This document shows, one piece after another, positions 22,948 through 42,434 of a stretch of 64,000 nucleotides of DNA; the first letter of the stretch is position 1, and each line of letters begins with the position of its first letter. Source of the stretch: Scheffersomyces stipitis CBS 6054 (lineage: Eukaryota; Ascomycota; Pichiomycetes; Serinales; Debaryomycetaceae); the NCBI RefSeq assembly GCF_000209165.1, contig NC_009068.1:1426001-1490000 (forward strand), given 5' to 3'. The position numbers and the translations under genes were made by a program. The notes beneath the pieces were generated by a model that was not told where the DNA came from, did not search any database, and was given only the letters and a program-made list of their open reading frames with translations.

Positions 22948-23342
22948 TGATAGAGATATAGTGATAGACAAGCATATATAAAACACTATGACATAGATAT
23001 TTACGTTTGAACATATACTGAGAGAAAAGAATATCAGACTGCAACAATATTAGACTATAGAATATTAGAGTAGAATTAGAAAAAGATGTCATATTTGAAA
23101 TACAGTAGATTTATTATATCGTAAAATAAGCATACTTTGTCTCTAGACCGTGAAATTGTCATACATAACGATAAAATATACAGACGACGGACGTAGATAT
23201 GCAATTGTTCAATTATATGCAATTGTTCAATTTTCCTTGTACAAATTGTACGCTTACTCTACTTTGCTTACTTCCTACTACTCCTTCTTCATAGCAACTT
23301 TCATTAAACATAAATATTCTATTACACATAACCAGAGCCGTC
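22948..23342. other. HRT2/TOA2 convergent 3' region
   Basis: About 395 bases, AT-rich, with a short direct repeat (GCAATTGTTCAATT, twice near 23200-23230). No gene. Confidence 0.4.
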
Positions 23343-29703: not shown

Positions 29704-31128
29704 ATGTCGTCAGTCGTCTACTATAAGTTTTTTCACCAGAAGAACCGGTCAGTGATCCACTTTGACGGTACAGCTATATCCGTCTTCGATCTCAAGCGAG
29801 AGATTATCCAGCAGAACCAGCTAGGACTGGGTCTTGACTTCAATTTACGTTTATATCATTCAGAACTGCCCGACACAGAGTATGAGTTAGACCAGGATGT
29901 CATACCGAGGTCGTCCTACGTCTTGGCGAAAAGGTCTCCTGCTATATTTAGGAACAGATTTAGTACCAATGCTTCCAGATATGTTACAGGAAAGCCACGG
30001 ATCAACAGAAAAGCCATCAACACCGCTGGAATAACGACTGGTGTCACAGGACCAACTCTCGGCCAAAGACCAGTGGACGAAAACATTTCGGAAGAAGATC
30101 GAATCAAGTTGATGTTTGAGAACCAGGAGAATGCCTGGGCCCAGACTCAGGACGAGTTGGCCACTCACAAAATGATACACTACAAGCCTGGAGCCGCTGG
30201 AGCTAAGGAAGACTTACCGCCACCAGGTTATATTTGCTATAGATGTGGGAAGAAAGACCACTGGATCAAGAACTGTCCTACGAACAACGACCCCAATTTC
30301 GAGGGAAAGAAGGTCTTGCGTACGACCGGTATTCCAAAGTCGTATTTGAAGACAATTTCTAAGGAGGAGTTTGACAAGAAAATGGAGACCGATGCTTTTG
30401 AAACTAACGAAAATGGAGACATTATTGATAGCGAAGGCAATGCCATTTTAGTGACAGAAGACGGAGACTATGCCATAGCCATGGCTGACAGCAAGACCTG
30501 GCTCACATACCAGGAAAAGCAACAGAATGCTGCCTTGAAGGCACAGCAGGACTTTGAAAAGAAGATAGTGGCTTGCATAGAAAACGATAATCGAGCAGAG
30601 TTCTTGGATCCTCTAGCTTCCACTAAGAAGTTGCTCAAGTCGCCCATAGTGATGACACCATGTTGCACCGAAAAGTCCAAATTGAACAAAATGACCAATT
30701 TCAGCTATAACAAAAGCGCATTGGAGCAGGTATTAATTGAGAATGACTTCCATTGCCCCAACTGTAACACCGAAGATATCTTCATCGATTCCTTGATTCC
30801 CAATGAAGAGTTAGAGTCGCAGTTGAAACAGTACATCGAAGAGAAACACACAGAACTAGGCATAGAGATTCCAGGCTCAGAAAGCACATTAAAGAGATCA
30901 GCGGACGATGCAGATGAAATAGGCCCAGATGCTAAAAGACAACGTCCAGAAATGGCCACCCCATTTGGTCAAATGATGCCTGGAATGCCCATGCCACCTC
31001 CAGGAGTCATGCCACCTCCAGGAGTCATGCCTGCTCCTTTTGCTATCCCTCCAGGTATGCCCATCCCTCCTCCCGGTATGCCAATGTTCATGCCTTTCAG
31101 CAATGTCAATAACCAGAAGAAGAATTAG
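29704..31128 (+). CDS. MPE1: Mpe1, cleavage and polyadenylation factor subunit
   Basis: A 474-residue protein with the RBBP6-like order of domains. Residues 1-80 are a DWNN ubiquitin-like domain (VYYKFFHQKNRSVIHFDG, VFDLKREII). A CCHC zinc knuckle, CYRCGKKDHWIKNCP, lies near 178. A divergent RING/U-box follows (CCTEKS and CPNCNTEDIF, about residues 320-360). The C-terminus is Met/Pro-rich (MPGMPMPPPGVMPPPG). Mpe1 is part of the nuclear cleavage and polyadenylation factor; it contacts the poly(A) signal RNA and Ysh1. The C-terminal MPP repeat is longer than in S. cerevisiae. Confidence 0.95.
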   Translation: MSSVVYYKFFHQKNRSVIHFDGTAISVFDLKREIIQQNQLGLGLDFNLRLYHSELPDTEYELDQDVIPRSSYVLAKRSPAIFRNRFSTNASRYVTGKPRINRKAINTAGITTGVTGPTLGQRPVDENISEEDRIKLMFENQENAWAQTQDELATHKMIHYKPGAAGAKEDLPPPGYICYRCGKKDHWIKNCPTNNDPNFEGKKVLRTTGIPKSYLKTISKEEFDKKMETDAFETNENGDIIDSEGNAILVTEDGDYAIAMADSKTWLTYQEKQQNAALKAQQDFEKKIVACIENDNRAEFLDPLASTKKLLKSPIVMTPCCTEKSKLNKMTNFSYNKSALEQVLIENDFHCPNCNTEDIFIDSLIPNEELESQLKQYIEEKHTELGIEIPGSESTLKRSADDADEIGPDAKRQRPEMATPFGQMMPGMPMPPPGVMPPPGVMPAPFAIPPGMPIPPPGMPMFMPFSNVNNQKKN

Positions 31129-31629
31129 AGCGATAGCAAGACTCCAACGATAATAATAGAATTTACAATAAATAGATATATATGTTCATTACATATATGA
31201 CATTTACTTTACAGATATTCTAACAACATATTCACAACTTTCTAATTACAATCACAGGAACACATGTACTACTACAGCAACATGTACACACTTATAAGAA
31301 CATAATTAGAGCAAAAAGAGAATCCAAACGTAAAACATGAATCCTATCTTAGGTGCAAAAACCCTACTGTATAAACCTGCCATATATAAGGATAGACGCA
31401 GTTACCCGGATGTTCCACGATATTTCACTGAAAAAAATTTTCCTTGAATTTTCAACTTCACAGTACACTTATTCTACCAACTAAGGTTCAGGTTCCGAGA
31501 TTGGTTGTGACAATCTTCATGAAGAATCGTCAAGTACAGTTTTCAGATTCACCTTAAGTCATTTTTTTGGTGTTATTCATTTTTAGGTGAAAATGTATGT
31601 TCTCTTAACGAGTTAATAGCAAATAGTGT

Positions 31630-31728
31630 CAAAAACATCAGCGGATGATCAAACATATCAATTCAAACTAGAGTATGTGACTTTTCAGAATGATCACAAC
31701 ATATTATAAATCTGAACTTTTGTTTTTG
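31630..31728 (+). ncRNA. SNR78: Box C/D snoRNA snR78 (25S Um2421 guide)
   Basis: The antisense element TTCAAACTAGAGT is complementary to 25S rRNA around U2421. The A five bases before the D'-like box GTGA pairs with U2421. The C box is degenerate (GATGA core, 31644-31648), and the D box CTGA is at 31712-31715. A perfect 7-bp terminal stem CAAAAAC/GTTTTTG (31630-31636 with 31722-31728) closes it. It lies inside intron 31595-31749. The internal GTATGT at 31673 belongs to the guide region and is not the donor. Confidence 0.88.
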
Positions 31729-31879
31729 GCGTTACTAATCAATCTGCAGATTGTTTCCGTTTGACAGCGATTCTAACATGTGAAATAGAGATTTGAAGAT
31801 TCTTCATTCGAAGATTGCTACAAGAATGTCGGTATCATTACTTAATTCGTATGTGTTATTCCAAAATTAAAATTAGACA

Positions 31880-31974
31880 GCATTTACTATGATGACTTAA
31901 CAAAAACAAAAGCTGGAATTACTGGCTGAATCTCTATGATTGATACGTTTTTGCAACTCTACTGATCCAAATGC
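31880..31974 (+). ncRNA. SNR77: Box C/D snoRNA snR77 (18S Um578 guide)
   Basis: C box ATGATGA at 31889-31895, D' CTGA at 31926-31929, C' ATGATTG at 31936-31942, and D CTGA at 31962-31965. The guide AGCTGGAATTAC upstream of D' pairs with 18S GUAAUUCCAGCU; the fifth base before D' faces U578. A 6-bp terminal stem GCATTT/AAATGC closes the RNA. It lies in the predicted intron starting at 31849. Confidence 0.92.
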
Positions 31975-32060
31975 CTTGTCGATTTAAAATTGATTATATT
32001 CTATATTGTTCTGTTACTAACTATTAAAGGTATGTGAAAGTTTACAGTTAAATGCTCCAA

Positions 32061-32160
32061 CTTCGTCCTTTTATGAAGAATTATTGCACTGGGCACTGAA
32101 TAATTTATGAGTGACAACGCATTTCGGTGGGCCTCAGAAACCCACCTTAACTGATCAACG
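32061..32160 (+). ncRNA. SNR76: Box C/D snoRNA snR76 (25S Cm2197 guide)
   Basis: C box ATGAAGA (32073-32079), D' CTGA (32096-32099), and D CTGA (32151-32154). The guide GCACTGGGCA pairs with 25S UGCCCAGUGC; the G five bases before D' faces C2197. Between C' and D there is a strong hairpin GGTGGG/CCCACC (about 32127-32146), unusual inside a C/D snoRNA. The terminal stem is weak (TCGT/ACGA). It lies in intron 32030-32214. Confidence 0.87.
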
Positions 32161-32291
32161 ACACAATTGGAGAATTGCTATAGTGTTATTGTACAGCAGT
32201 ACTAACTTCAATAGTCCCTTGTGAATTAAAGACTTCTTTTGATCTTTTGAACTTTTATTAGTATGTATCTACCTATCAGTTCTGAACAAAG

Positions 32292-32387
32292 CTAGATGAT
32301 GATTCTTTTAGATGACGAGTCAGAATTTCGGGATACCCGTTGATGACAAAACTTTTTTAATACCATTCATGCTTTTCTGATTTCTAG
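32292..32387 (+). ncRNA. SNR75: Box C/D snoRNA snR75 (25S Gm2288 guide)
   Basis: C box ATGATGA (32296-32302), D'-like CAGA (32321-32324), C' TTGATGA (32340-32346), and D CTGA (32377-32380). The guide TAGATGACGAG pairs with 25S CUCGUCAUCUA; the C five bases before D' faces G2288. The C'-D' spacer contains a small hairpin CGGGATACCCG. The terminal stem is CTAGA/TCTAG. It lies in intron 32261-32445. Confidence 0.92.
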
Positions 32388-32506
32388 TTCTATACAGAAC
32401 TGATGATTTTGACGATGTTGATCGCAATACTAACAGCCATCTTAGAGTTTCTGTTTTTCTTTCTCTCCCGAAGGTTTTAGCAGTTCTTCGATTGTTACGA
32501 TATTCG

Positions 32507-32605
32507 GAAGTTCAATAATATGATGAGGTTGAAAAAAAATGACAAGCATATGTCTGAATCTTTTATGAAGAGAAACTTTTTCATGTCTGATATTAATTGT
32601 ACTTC
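32507..32605 (+). ncRNA. SNR74: Box C/D snoRNA snR74 (18S Am28 guide)
   Basis: C box ATGATGA (32520-32526), D' CTGA (32554-32557), C' ATGAAGA (32565-32571), and D CTGA (32587-32590). The guide GACAAGCATATG is a 12-base perfect complement of 18S CAUAUGCUUGUC; the T five bases before D' faces A28. The terminal stem is GAAGT/ACTTC with an inner CAAT/ATTG. No GTATGT donor or TACTAAC branch point brackets it. A hairpin ACTTCAAT/ATTGAAGT just downstream (32601-32624) competes for the same terminal-stem bases. Confidence 0.93.
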
Positions 32606-32711
32606 AATAAGTATCAATTGAAGTTCTCGTAAAAACCGTTTTTTGATGGTGTGCCCATTGGAAAATTCAAGGGCTACTGCTAGATTACCACGATCACATA
32701 ATCAACTTTGG

Positions 32712-32836
32712 GTGCAAAAGTAAATGATGATTCTACCACATTTTCACGACGGTCTACTGTGTTTTGGGACTGTTAATCCCTAAACCTTGATGACAAATTT
32801 GGCCTTGACCGGCCGTGGTTCCTGAAACTTTTGTAC
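32712..32836 (+). ncRNA. SNR73: Box C/D snoRNA snR73 (25S Cm2959 guide)
   Basis: C box ATGATGA (32724-32730), D'-like CTGT, C' TTGATGA near 32788, and D CTGA (32822-32825). The guide TCACGACGGTCTA pairs with 25S UAGACCGUCGUGA; the G five bases before D' faces C2959. A 10-bp terminal stem (32712-32721 with 32827-32836, one wobble) closes it. As with snR74, clear flanking splice sites are missing. Confidence 0.92.
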
Positions 32837-32984
32837 GAGTTGAATATGGGTCGTGATATTCCAGACCTGGCTAGAGAACTGTCTTGTTACTATAAATATG
32901 TGTAAGATTACTTGCATAAGTACTTGTAGTGGCATTGACTAGGTCTCTTCCTGCTCTGTAAGTATGATTTCAGTTGCATATGAG

Positions 32985-33079
32985 TACATAATAGGTGATG
33001 AACTAACGTTATTGAGTTACGGCTATGAAACCTCAATAAAAATAATTCGATTTGCATGTCAGTCTGATAGCATTATGTA
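32985..33079 (+). ncRNA. SNR72: Box C/D snoRNA snR72 (25S Am876 guide)
   Basis: C box GTGATGA (32995-33001) and D CTGA (33064-33067). The guide CGATTTGCATGTCAG upstream of D pairs with 25S CUGACGUGCAAAUCG through one G-U wobble; the T five bases before D faces A876. A perfect 8-bp terminal stem TACATAAT/ATTATGTA (32985-32992 with 33072-33079) closes it. It lies in intron 32958-33128, whose donor is GTAAGT and whose branch point is TACTAAC at 33114-33120. Confidence 0.9.
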
Positions 33080-33200
33080 TTGTAGACAAGAATCTACGCT
33101 GTACAACACGAAATACTAACATCAGCAGGTGGAAATAGCAATAACTAGAGGTCTGCCCTATGGAGATCTTCCTATATACGGAAATATACACGGAATGCAA

Positions 33201-33757
33201 GTGTCAGGAAAAAATAGTCTAGAGCAGCTACGTAGAAAATAACAATATATCCGTAACATGGAAATGTTCTTAATGAAAATATACGAAATGGCGTATTTTG
33301 AAAAATCTGAAAAGTCTGAAAAATCTGAAAAATCCCATAGTTAACAGTCCAGCGTACAATCAAGTGCAGATTTCATACAGAGATTATGAACATGGAGAAA
33401 ATTCGCAAACTTCGAGAAAGTTCGGATAAGCCCAGTTCAAGTAGAAGACAACTACCCGAGCAGCTCTGCAGCATATTACTCTACCCCAGTCGTTTCTTGC
33501 TTAGCACAATGATCATTGCGGTCTTTGAGAAAATGCTCAAAAAAAACGGCAGTACTACCCGAGACTTATATGCATGAGCAGTTGCTGTTGGAGCTATTCG
33601 TTATTGTGGTTGATATAATGAAGCCGTGCCAAATATCGCAGACTTCTATTATCTACGGACAGGACGTAGATCGCCTGGGACATTTTTGCTGCCACTATCA
33701 CGCTTATAGGTTTTTATATCTGGTGTAGTTTCGTTTTTTTCGTTTTTCTCTTCATCC
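33201..33757. promoter_or_regulatory. Upstream region of BUL1
   Basis: About 560 bases. It contains four tandem 9-bp units (TGAAAAATC and variants, 33299-33334) running straight into a CATAGTTAAC motif at 33336-33345, about 420 bases before the BUL1 ATG. Two short ATG-initiated frames (63 and 70 codons) resemble nothing. Confidence 0.5.
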
Positions 33758-36748
33758 ATGAATTTCCTCAAGAAGAGTAGCCACTCCGATGGCACCTCTC
33801 CTAGCGAGTCGTCGTTGTCCTCTTCTTCGTCCGGACACCACGGGTCTCATCGCAGCCAGCCCCTCCCCCACTTTCCAAGACCATCTTCTTCAGCAGCACT
33901 TGCAAGTATGAGCCCCAACCCTAGCCCAAATGGAAAGAATGCTACAGAAGCCAACCCAAACGACCTTCCTCCGCCATACAATGTTCTGGTGAATTCGTCC
34001 TCTGATCTGTTCTTTTCTAGGTCGAAATCTAATAAAACCGCACCTCCCATAACTAAAGTCAGTTCCAGCAGTCTCCTCAGAGATTCCTCATCCAGCTCTT
34101 CCAGTACAAGGTCCAAACGAAATGTTCCCTATCGTCCAGCCCCAGAACAGCAGAGGCATATAGACCTCATGACCGGAAACTCTTCTGATTCACCCATAGC
34201 ACCATTATCTTCGGTTAGTTCTAATACCCAGACTGAATACTTTGATGTGCTTCCTTCGTTCCAGATGTTCCAGTCCATTTTGAAAAGAGACGATGCACAG
34301 TTCAGTGAGGATCTACAGACATTACCTCCAGTATATGGAGATACCACTAACAGTTCTCCCACTCCACCAGGTGGGCTATCACCAACTACATCTGCTACCC
34401 AGGGTAACAGTATAGATACTATCATCAACGATGTAAGTTCAAGATTAGAAGAGTACCAATTAGAACGAGAACACGAGGAAAGAGGCGATTACTTGTTTGA
34501 GGACGATGATAGTGAACACACTCATACATCGTCAGATGCGGAAAGTGACCATGCTGACGAGCATACGCACAACGAAAATGTAGCAGTGACTATGGACCGA
34601 TATGGTCATTCTCCGCTCGACAATATCGACAGATTACCCAAACTTACCAACTCGCCTATTGATATAGCTATCTATGTAACGAAATCGGTTCCTCAGCCTC
34701 ACCACAAGAACGAGCTCGAAACCAGATTGAAAGAGTATACCAGTGGAGACATGGTCAATGGGTATATCATCATTACCAACAATTCCAACAAACCGGTTGA
34801 TTTTGGCTTGTTCACAGTTTCGCTTGAAGGAACCATCAAGGCCACAGAAAGAAACACACATGCAGAAGCCAACGAAGCTCATAAGTACAACAAGATTTTG
34901 ATGAAGAAGTTCTTGAAGATGTACGACTTCAATGCTTCCTATGGATACACCGATGTGCCCAACAGTGCGGGAATTGAGTATGAAGCGTTTTCAATCGATG
35001 CACTGGATGGGTGTGTGATTGGGCTTCCCAACGAAAGAGTTTTGAAGCCTCTGACGAAGTATAAGAAGTTTTTCACCTTTAGATTCCCTAATAGATTATT
35101 AGACAACAGTTGCATTCATAGCATTTTACCGCATATTCTTCCTCCACCGTCAATGGGGGTCGACTCTACCTGCTTCTACAATCGTGGACAGTCTATTCAG
35201 ATGAACAAGGCTCTTGGTTATGGTTTCTTGAATATCAGAGGCACACCACTTTTGACAAAGGACTACAGTTTTGAAGACGTCAGTGTGAGTTACACAATAG
35301 AAGCTAAGTTCATTGACAGAATTGATGGCAAGGAACAACACAATGAGCTCTCAGAGCGTGAAATCAACGACCCTAACTCAGAGGCTGATTATGCCATCTC
35401 TAAAAGCTCTCAGTATTTTCTCAGGTTCATCCCTGACTTGAAGGAGCAGTTCCAATACTATAATACTTCCTTCCACTACACCCCTGAAAGCTACGAAAAT
35501 TCTGGTATTGACGGAAAGCTCTTTCTTGACTACTTGCATTTGTCGACTTGGAGATTTGTCAATTTGCAGAACTACCAACTTGAAAAGGAAATTAATGATC
35601 GTTTGGCTAGACAGGATTTAACCCAAGAAGAGATCAAGAACAAGAACTTGATGAGCATCAACAGTGAAACCACCAGCAGTCACATGGAGATGTTGTTGAC
35701 CAGACTGCAATCTATTGAAGAGCAAATTTCTCTGAAGGAGGTTGACCACAGCGAGGAGGCATTCTACGAAAGACAGCGAATGATAGGTACAAAGATTCCG
35801 GTGGATGTGTATGGCAAGAAAAAGAAGATGATTCTTTCATCCTTAATCAAAATCGGAGAACTGAAAATCTATGTCAAGGTTCCAGACAAAGTAATTCCAT
35901 ACACGGCGCCCAAGTTGTTACAAAAGTACAATAGTGGCACAAATGAAGAAGGGACGAGAAGTAATACTCTTAGTCCAGTCACTTCTTCGCCAGGATTAGC
36001 ACCGGTGACTTCAGCATTGACTCCTATTGGCAGCAGATCCGACGATTTGAGACCAATTTCTTCAACTTCAAGCAACCATATTGTAGACCTATACAATAGA
36101 GACGACAATGAGCTCATCCAATCACTAGATGTATGTATTGAGTTTGACTCTCTTGACAATTCTACCAAGCCTCCTCATATCAGCCATATAGATACCAACG
36201 TGGTGTTTTGGTCTTACTACACAGAGTACCCCTTGCCAATTGAACTAGGGTACGACTTCTTCTATTCAAACCCTGAGGAAGCCGAGAGAAACATCAACGA
36301 CTCAGTGACTATTACCAGAAATAATCTTCAAGGATTGAAGGATCGTGTAAATAACTACATCAATTTCTTAAAGACAAATCTGGTCTATGTGTCCAAGAAT
36401 TCGTACCTTTACTTGAAGGCAATCAAGCACTTAGGTGTCAAGAAAGATACCATTAAGGACTATTACAAAGCCGTCACTGAAAAGACTCACCCGACTTTGT
36501 TGAACAGTGAAGCTGGATGGAAAGTGAGCCAATTAGGAAACCAAAAGTTCCGCTGGACAAAGAATTTGAAGATTCCTTTGACTGCGATCAACAAAAACAA
36601 CGTGAACTTGTTACCAAGCTACCAGAGTTGCTTAGTAGGCAGACTCTACTGTTTACAAGTTGTTGTTAAGTTTAAGGGCAGCGGTTCAGAAGCAAACGAA
36701 TTTGCCGATAATATGGTGTCAGTAGACATTCCTATTTTAGTTGGTTAA
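33758..36748 (+). CDS. BUL1: Bul1/Bul2-type arrestin-like adaptor of the Rsp5 ubiquitin ligase
   Basis: A 996-residue protein, close to the yeast Bul1 length. The N-terminal 230 residues are Ser-rich and disordered, with two PPxY motifs that bind Rsp5 WW domains: PPPY at 71-74 and PPVY at 190-193. The Bul1 N and C domains follow: an arrestin-like core (MVNGYIIITNNSNKPVDFGLF, LKPLTKYKKFFTFRFPNRLLD, FLNIRGTPLLTKDYSFEDVSVSY) and a C-terminal block (WSYYTEYPLPIELGYDFFY, WTKNLKIPLTAINK). Bul proteins direct Rsp5 to permeases such as Gap1 for ubiquitin-dependent endocytosis and sorting under nitrogen control. Whether the genome has one or two BUL genes cannot be told from here. Confidence 0.93.
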   Translation: MNFLKKSSHSDGTSPSESSLSSSSSGHHGSHRSQPLPHFPRPSSSAALASMSPNPSPNGKNATEANPNDLPPPYNVLVNSSSDLFFSRSKSNKTAPPITKVSSSSLLRDSSSSSSSTRSKRNVPYRPAPEQQRHIDLMTGNSSDSPIAPLSSVSSNTQTEYFDVLPSFQMFQSILKRDDAQFSEDLQTLPPVYGDTTNSSPTPPGGLSPTTSATQGNSIDTIINDVSSRLEEYQLEREHEERGDYLFEDDDSEHTHTSSDAESDHADEHTHNENVAVTMDRYGHSPLDNIDRLPKLTNSPIDIAIYVTKSVPQPHHKNELETRLKEYTSGDMVNGYIIITNNSNKPVDFGLFTVSLEGTIKATERNTHAEANEAHKYNKILMKKFLKMYDFNASYGYTDVPNSAGIEYEAFSIDALDGCVIGLPNERVLKPLTKYKKFFTFRFPNRLLDNSCIHSILPHILPPPSMGVDSTCFYNRGQSIQMNKALGYGFLNIRGTPLLTKDYSFEDVSVSYTIEAKFIDRIDGKEQHNELSEREINDPNSEADYAISKSSQYFLRFIPDLKEQFQYYNTSFHYTPESYENSGIDGKLFLDYLHLSTWRFVNLQNYQLEKEINDRLARQDLTQEEIKNKNLMSINSETTSSHMEMLLTRLQSIEEQISLKEVDHSEEAFYERQRMIGTKIPVDVYGKKKKMILSSLIKIGELKIYVKVPDKVIPYTAPKLLQKYNSGTNEEGTRSNTLSPVTSSPGLAPVTSALTPIGSRSDDLRPISSTSSNHIVDLYNRDDNELIQSLDVCIEFDSLDNSTKPPHISHIDTNVVFWSYYTEYPLPIELGYDFFYSNPEEAERNINDSVTITRNNLQGLKDRVNNYINFLKTNLVYVSKNSYLYLKAIKHLGVKKDTIKDYYKAVTEKTHPTLLNSEAGWKVSQLGNQKFRWTKNLKIPLTAINKNNVNLLPSYQSCLVGRLYCLQVVVKFKGSGSEANEFADNMVSVDIPILVG

Positions 36749-41453: not shown

Positions 41454-41914
41454 GTATGTGACAGATACAACGAGGAATAGATGAAGGCAATGCAGGCAGA
41501 ATTTGAGCCAGTTCAGACAGCGCCAGTTCTGAAGTCCAGCTAGTGGTGGATTTATCGATAGCTGAAAAATTTTATGAAAGAGAAAAAGACTTGAAAAATT
41601 AATAGAACAGAGAGGGGCCAGATGGGATTATCAACTTCGGCAACAGAGACAAAAGAATAGGTTCCAGGTAAAACCAAGAGAGCAGGGTTAGCCTCTAGAC
41701 ATAATATTCATCATTTTCAAGTATCCAAGAAAATCTTTCTGTATAATCACAAGTAAACCAGAACGGAATATCATTGAAAAGCGAATAAAAAGTCAACAGA
41801 AATTGAACATTCAAAGCCCAACAAATTCTATCCATATTCACTCAGATGAGACCATTGCATTGCCATTCTAATCATCGCCATTTAAAGCGAATTTTATACT
41901 AACAATTTACGTAG
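41454..41914 (+). other. 5'UTR intron of RPL20
   Basis: Donor GTATGT at 41454-41459, branch point TACTAAC at 41897-41903, and acceptor TAG at 41912-41914, one base before the RPL20 ATG. The predicted length is 461 bases. RPL20 genes in S. cerevisiae also carry an intron at the very beginning of the gene, so position is conserved. I did not find a convincing snoRNA inside. Confidence 0.9.
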
Positions 41915-41915
41915 A

Positions 41916-42434
41916 ATGTCTAGATTAAACGAATATCAAGTCATCGGTCGTCGTCTTCCAACTGATTCTGTTCCAGAACCAAAGTTGTACCGTATGAGAA
42001 TCTTTGCTCCTAACGCTGTTGTTGCCAAGTCTCGTTACTGGTACTTCTTGCAAAAGTTGCACAAGGTCAAGAAGGCCTCCGGTGAAATTGTTTCCGTTAA
42101 CATCATCGCTGAAGCCAAGCCAACCAAGGTCAAGACCTTCGGTATCTGGATCAGATACGACTCCAGATCTGGTATCCACAACATGTACAAAGAATACAGA
42201 GATGTTACCAGAGTCGGTGCCGTTGAAACCATGTACCAAGACTTGGCTGCTAGACACAGAGCTAGATTTAGATCTATCCACATCTTGAAGGTCGTTGAAT
42301 TGGAAAAGACTGACGACGTCAAGAGACAATACGTCAAGCAATACTTGTCCAAGGACTTGAAGTTCCCATTGCCACACAGAGTCCAAAAGACCACCAAGTT
42401 ATACCAAGCTCAAGCTCCAACTACTTTCTACTAA
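41916..42434 (+). CDS. RPL20: Large-subunit ribosomal protein eL20 (Rpl20)
   Basis: A 172-residue protein, the exact yeast length, matching Rpl20 from [27 protein letters not shown] to the C-terminal [14 protein letters not shown] and TTFY end. It sits on the 60S subunit near the 5S rRNA/sarcin-ricin region. Codon use is extremely biased, as in FBA1. The whole coding sequence lies in one exon; the intron ends one base before the ATG. Confidence 0.98.

Follow-up and report, generated by a model that had tools for sequence, protein, structure and literature searches.

The DNA between an MPE1-like and a BUL1-like gene of Scheffersomyces stipitis holds seven box C/D snoRNAs in a conserved order; five of them lie between splice signals, and the guides of two are in register with the 18S rRNA of the same genome. 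We conclude with high confidence that the locus corresponds to fungal snoRNA cluster I in the form known from the Candida clade, in which a spliced non-coding host transcript would carry five snoRNAs in introns and two in an exon. Weighed against this reading were the scores of snR78 and snR72, which fall below the Rfam thresholds, the degenerate box C of snR78 and an AAG acceptor. The interpretation given in the original prediction is right but not new; the arrangement is an ordinary one that has been published before for yeasts related to this one. A conserved snoRNA operon has here kept its intronic form, and snR72 has not left it. The locus can help in annotation and in tracing how the introns were lost in Saccharomyces; it opens no new question.

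Seven box C/D snoRNAs in the cluster I order

The window, meaning the whole 64 kb of DNA analysed, was searched with cmscan against Rfam at gathering thresholds. Five matches were returned, all on the + strand and spanning 31885-32827, in the order snR77, snR76, snR75, SNORD27 and snR73. The snR77 match (31885..31967; RF01181, 93.7 bits) is the only one to its model in the genome at E ≤ 0.001. It is followed by snR76 (32070..32158; RF01209, 80.7 bits), snR75 (32294..32382; RF01185, 76.5 bits), SNORD27 (32514..32594; RF00086, 52.1 bits with a cut-off of 52) and snR73 (32720..32827; RF01207, 57.3 bits with a cut-off of 37). The SNORD27 match was taken as snR74, presumably the yeast counterpart of SNORD27, as its guide shows complementarity to 18S rRNA around A28.

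A more permissive scan of 31130-33757 (E ≤ 1) gave 11 matches. It added snR78 and snoZ122 at the two ends of the cluster, both below cut-off, while the four further matches fell on snR74 (one), snR76 (one) and snR77 (two). The snR78-like snoRNA (31638..31715, + strand; RF01176, 29.9 bits against a cut-off of 48) has a degenerate box C, GGATGA as compared with TGATGA, and a box D, CTGA, at 31712. At the other end, the snR72-like snoRNA (32990..33074, + strand; RF00343, 29.6 bits against a cut-off of 38) was found with the snoZ122 model, which we take to be the snR72 equivalent; its box C, GTGATGA, starts at 32995 and its box D, CTGA, at 33064. When the whole genome (15.44 Mb, 8 contigs) was searched at E ≤ 10, the locus ranked first of five matches to the snR78 model, with 33.4 bits over 31638-31722, and first of two matches to the snoZ122 model, each time under the cut-off. 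The scores alone are weak, since at the same E-value the snR78 model also finds matches in nine of 14 control genomes and the snoZ122 model in seven, all under cut-off. The identity of snR78 and snR72 is nevertheless convincing because they occupy both ends of the expected order and are accompanied by splice signals. The search with Rfam C/D models, which had been proposed as a check on the original prediction, recovered all seven members, two of them below cut-off but in place, and confirms the order snR78-77-76-75-74-73-72 on the + strand.

The cluster lies between an upstream ORF with DWNN and zinc-knuckle domains (MPE1-like), ending at 31128, and a downstream ORF with Bul1 domains (BUL1-like), starting at 33758. 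The host had been described as non-coding, and this was borne out: the longest ATG-initiated ORF in 31129-33757 encodes 63 aa, and after splicing in silico the longest on the + strand has 33 aa. A protein-coding host was rejected on these lengths. A TATA-like element, TATATAA, is read at 31383..31389 (+ strand) and may be part of the promoter of the host transcript. A 9-base unit, TGAAAAATC, is present in four copies at 33299-33334, just 3′ of the cluster.

Splice signals flank five of the seven snoRNAs

Five predicted introns were delineated on the + strand, with lengths of 155-185 nt. Intron 1 (31595..31749, 155 nt) would begin at a GTATGT donor and end at a CAG at 31749, with a branch point TACTAAT at 31733, and holds snR78. 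Intron 2 (31849..32029), around snR77, has a GTATGT donor and a TACTAAC branch point at 32015; its length would be 181 nt with the acceptor AAG at 32029 or 199 nt with a CAG at 32047. Intron 3 (32030..32214, 185 nt; GTATGT, TACTAAC at 32200, TAG) and intron 4 (32261..32445, 185 nt; GTATGT, TACTAAC at 32428, TAG at 32445) hold snR76 and snR75, respectively. Intron 5 (32958..33128, 171 nt), around snR72, would use a GTAAGT donor, a TACTAAC branch point at 33114 and a CAG at 33128 or, alternatively, at 33125.

A snoRNA was scored as flanked when it had a donor no more than 100 nt upstream of it and, no more than 120 nt downstream, a branch point followed by an AG. By this measure snR78, snR77, snR76, snR75 and snR72 have complete sets, while neither snR74 nor snR73 is flanked by splice signals; these two share a predicted exon of 512 nt (32446-32957) and look exonic. 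The original prediction, which had placed most members between GTATGT or GTAAGT donors and TACTAAC branch points, therefore stands for five of the seven but not for snR74 and snR73, and one of the branch points reads TACTAAT. The splice signals thus point to the Candida form of the cluster, in which five members would be intronic and the others exonic.

The possibility that the motifs occur by chance was rejected. Taken singly, their numbers in the window are ordinary (10 TACTAAC as compared with 6.73 expected, and 30 GTATGT as compared with 29.12 expected), but their arrangement exceeds that in every shuffled sequence. The eight spacers, of which the two outermost were trimmed to 260 nt, were put through 5000 dinucleotide shuffles: no snoRNA acquired a complete flanking set in 4913 cases, one did in 85 and two, the maximum, did in 2; this comparison is somewhat flattering, as motifs and distances were fixed after the sites had been seen, but the margin is wide.

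Guide sequences of snR74 and snR77 fit the 18S rRNA

Guides were compared with a 1550-nt part of the genome's own 18S rRNA, beside a run of 5000 N. In snR74, the D′ box CTGA at 32554 places A28 of 18S rRNA at the fifth nucleotide within a 12-bp duplex. In snR77, the D′ box CTGA at 31926 places U576, the U after CGG, at the fifth nucleotide of a 14-bp duplex with one G-U pair; we take this residue to be the equivalent of S. cerevisiae U578. The spacing expected of a box C/D guide, with the target fifth from D′, was hence found for two of the seven snoRNAs, and the claim that they guide 18S Um578 (snR77) and Am28 (snR74) was upheld in register. For the remaining members we assume the 25S targets Um2421 (snR78), Cm2197 (snR76), Gm2288 (snR75), Cm2959 (snR73) and Am876 (snR72). 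The guide segments of snR78, snR76, snR75 and snR73 match the Rfam consensus lines; the snR72 segment has one base that is different from the snoZ122 line.

Antisense matches of 12 bases to 18S rRNA mean little by themselves, since the window has 16 of them on its + strand and 6 on its − strand, with about 12 expected by a hand estimate. One such match, at 22966, has no box D that we could see nearby, and another, at 42220, lies inside an ORF that we take to encode RPL20. On the stretch C3:1703000-1712900, the 18S rRNA gene is cut short by a run of 5000 N. No 25S rRNA was found in the assembly with two sequence patterns or in an Rfam scan of two stretches that adjoin the 18S, and a search for 5.8S rRNA gave no match.

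Relation to known snoRNA clusters

The series snR78-77-76-75-74-73-72 has been described as cluster I, present in nearly all fungi analysed (PMC3596301). According to the text of that report, its members lie in introns in Euascomycetes and, for the most part, in other Hemiascomycetes, it is not spliced in S. cerevisiae or its close relatives, and the intron of snR72 has been lost from it in most fungal species; 'stipitis' is not mentioned in the main text. In N. crassa, too, C/D snoRNAs have been described in the introns of conserved clusters, together with alternative splicing (PMC2780460). As compared with fungal cluster I as presented in PMC3596301, the locus has the same seven members in the same order in a non-coding, mostly intronic host and differs in nothing of kind; snR72, whose intron is lost in most fungi, is retained here.

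The closest likeness is to the Candida group. In the account of C. albicans, C. parapsilosis, C. orthopsilosis and L. elongisporus in PMC5033589, five cluster I snoRNAs are intronic, and splicing was seen by RNA-seq in C. parapsilosis. Five intronic members would be common to these species and the present locus, a likeness in number. snR72 is in place here, whereas it has moved away in C. parapsilosis (PMC5033589), and the introns of snR77 and snR76 abut here, with an AAG acceptor or an overlapping CAG.

The S. cerevisiae polycistron shares members and order with the locus but has no introns, and is processed by Rnt1 cleavage followed by exonucleases (PMC5033589). The contrast with this intronless cluster drawn in the original prediction is correct, yet it had already been published, and the intronless form is regarded as the derived state (PMC3596301, PMC5033589).

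Proposed processing and alternatives

We propose that one non-coding transcript would run rightward from approximately 31.4 kb to approximately 33.3 kb. Five introns would be spliced out, and debranching of the lariats followed by exonuclease trimming would yield snR78, snR77, snR76, snR75 and snR72. Splicing alone would not release snR74 and snR73, around which there are no splice signals; both require cleavage of some other kind and would be freed from the long exon by an endonuclease and trimming. Each snoRNA would then guide 2′-O-methylation of rRNA. Two details of the locus, the abutting introns and a GTATGT inside snR78, are both of known kinds.

Introns 2 and 3 abut, so that TACTAAC and the AAG ending at 32029 are directly followed by GTATGT at 32030, with an exon of zero length. 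Use of the CAG at 32047 instead would make intron 2 overlap the donor that follows it, and the AAG is the only acceptor of intron 2 before that donor, which counts against separate splicing as we propose it; the cluster I acceptors given in PMC5033589 are TAG or CAG. Clusters II and III of the clade are reported to include zero-length, one-base and negative exons, and exon loss is reported in all three clusters (PMC5033589, PMC3596301). One variant of the main reading is that the two introns are removed as a single unit, 31849-32214. The absence of an exon between them and the poor upstream acceptor fit such joint removal, the spliced product would be identical in length and exons to that of separate removal, and C. 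parapsilosis is reported to skip intervening exons as a minor splicing pattern (PMC5033589). Against joint removal, the GTATGT at 32030 is a consensus donor and the TACTAAC at 32015 a consensus branch point, and related yeasts have been proposed to splice abutting snoRNA introns recursively or stepwise (PMC5033589, PMC3596301), with alternative acceptor use also allowed as an explanation in PMC3596301. We regard joint removal as a real but minority possibility, and separate removal of the two introns is retained as the preferred reading.

The second detail is a possible donor, GTATGT, at 31673..31678 (+ strand), which lies over the end of the snR78 guide and its D′ box (GTGA). Three of the four Candida-group species are reported to have a GTATGT within snR78, namely C. 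parapsilosis, where a splice event accompanies it, C. orthopsilosis and L. elongisporus, whereas C. albicans has GTCTGT there and no consensus donor (PMC5033589). The motif here is inferred to be at the same position as in the Candida-group species. This might suggest a conserved switch in which the inner donor at 31673 competes with the outer donor at 31595 for the shared acceptor at 31749. Because use of the inner donor destroys snR78, the choice of donor would then determine how much methylation one rRNA site receives. Most of the six bases are, however, tied to the guide end and D′ box, and because these elements fix most of GTNTGT, a chance match at hardly more than a single base would be enough. 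This constraint and the GTCTGT of C. albicans both count against a switch, which we consider quite unlikely.

Least probable of all, and in our view very improbable, is that RNase III (Rnt1-like) cuts between the snoRNAs do most of the processing in place of splicing, with the splice signals as relics: this would account for the order shared with the S. cerevisiae polycistron and for the bare flanks of snR74 and snR73, but not for the donor, branch point and AG that are all present around five of the seven snoRNAs, and C. parapsilosis splices its cluster I (PMC5033589). Minimum-energy folds of the eight spacer stretches, each folded alone and thus a weak test, gave no convincing canonical Rnt1 hairpin; the sole AGNN tetraloop in them caps a 4-bp stem at 33124.

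Other features of the window

Elsewhere in the window, at 41454-41914, a GTATGT is followed by TACTAAC and a TAG just 5′ of the ATG of an ORF that we take to encode ribosomal protein L20 (RPL20). This suggests a long 5′ UTR intron, in which no RNA family was found at the Rfam gathering threshold. With regard to a possible reading of CTG as serine, CTG codons were inspected in three proteins: the first has none, the second gave no match, and the third has one, in a poorly conserved stretch. The N-myristoyltransferase of the window has its best PDB match in 1iyk (E 1.2e-196), which we take to be the C. albicans enzyme.
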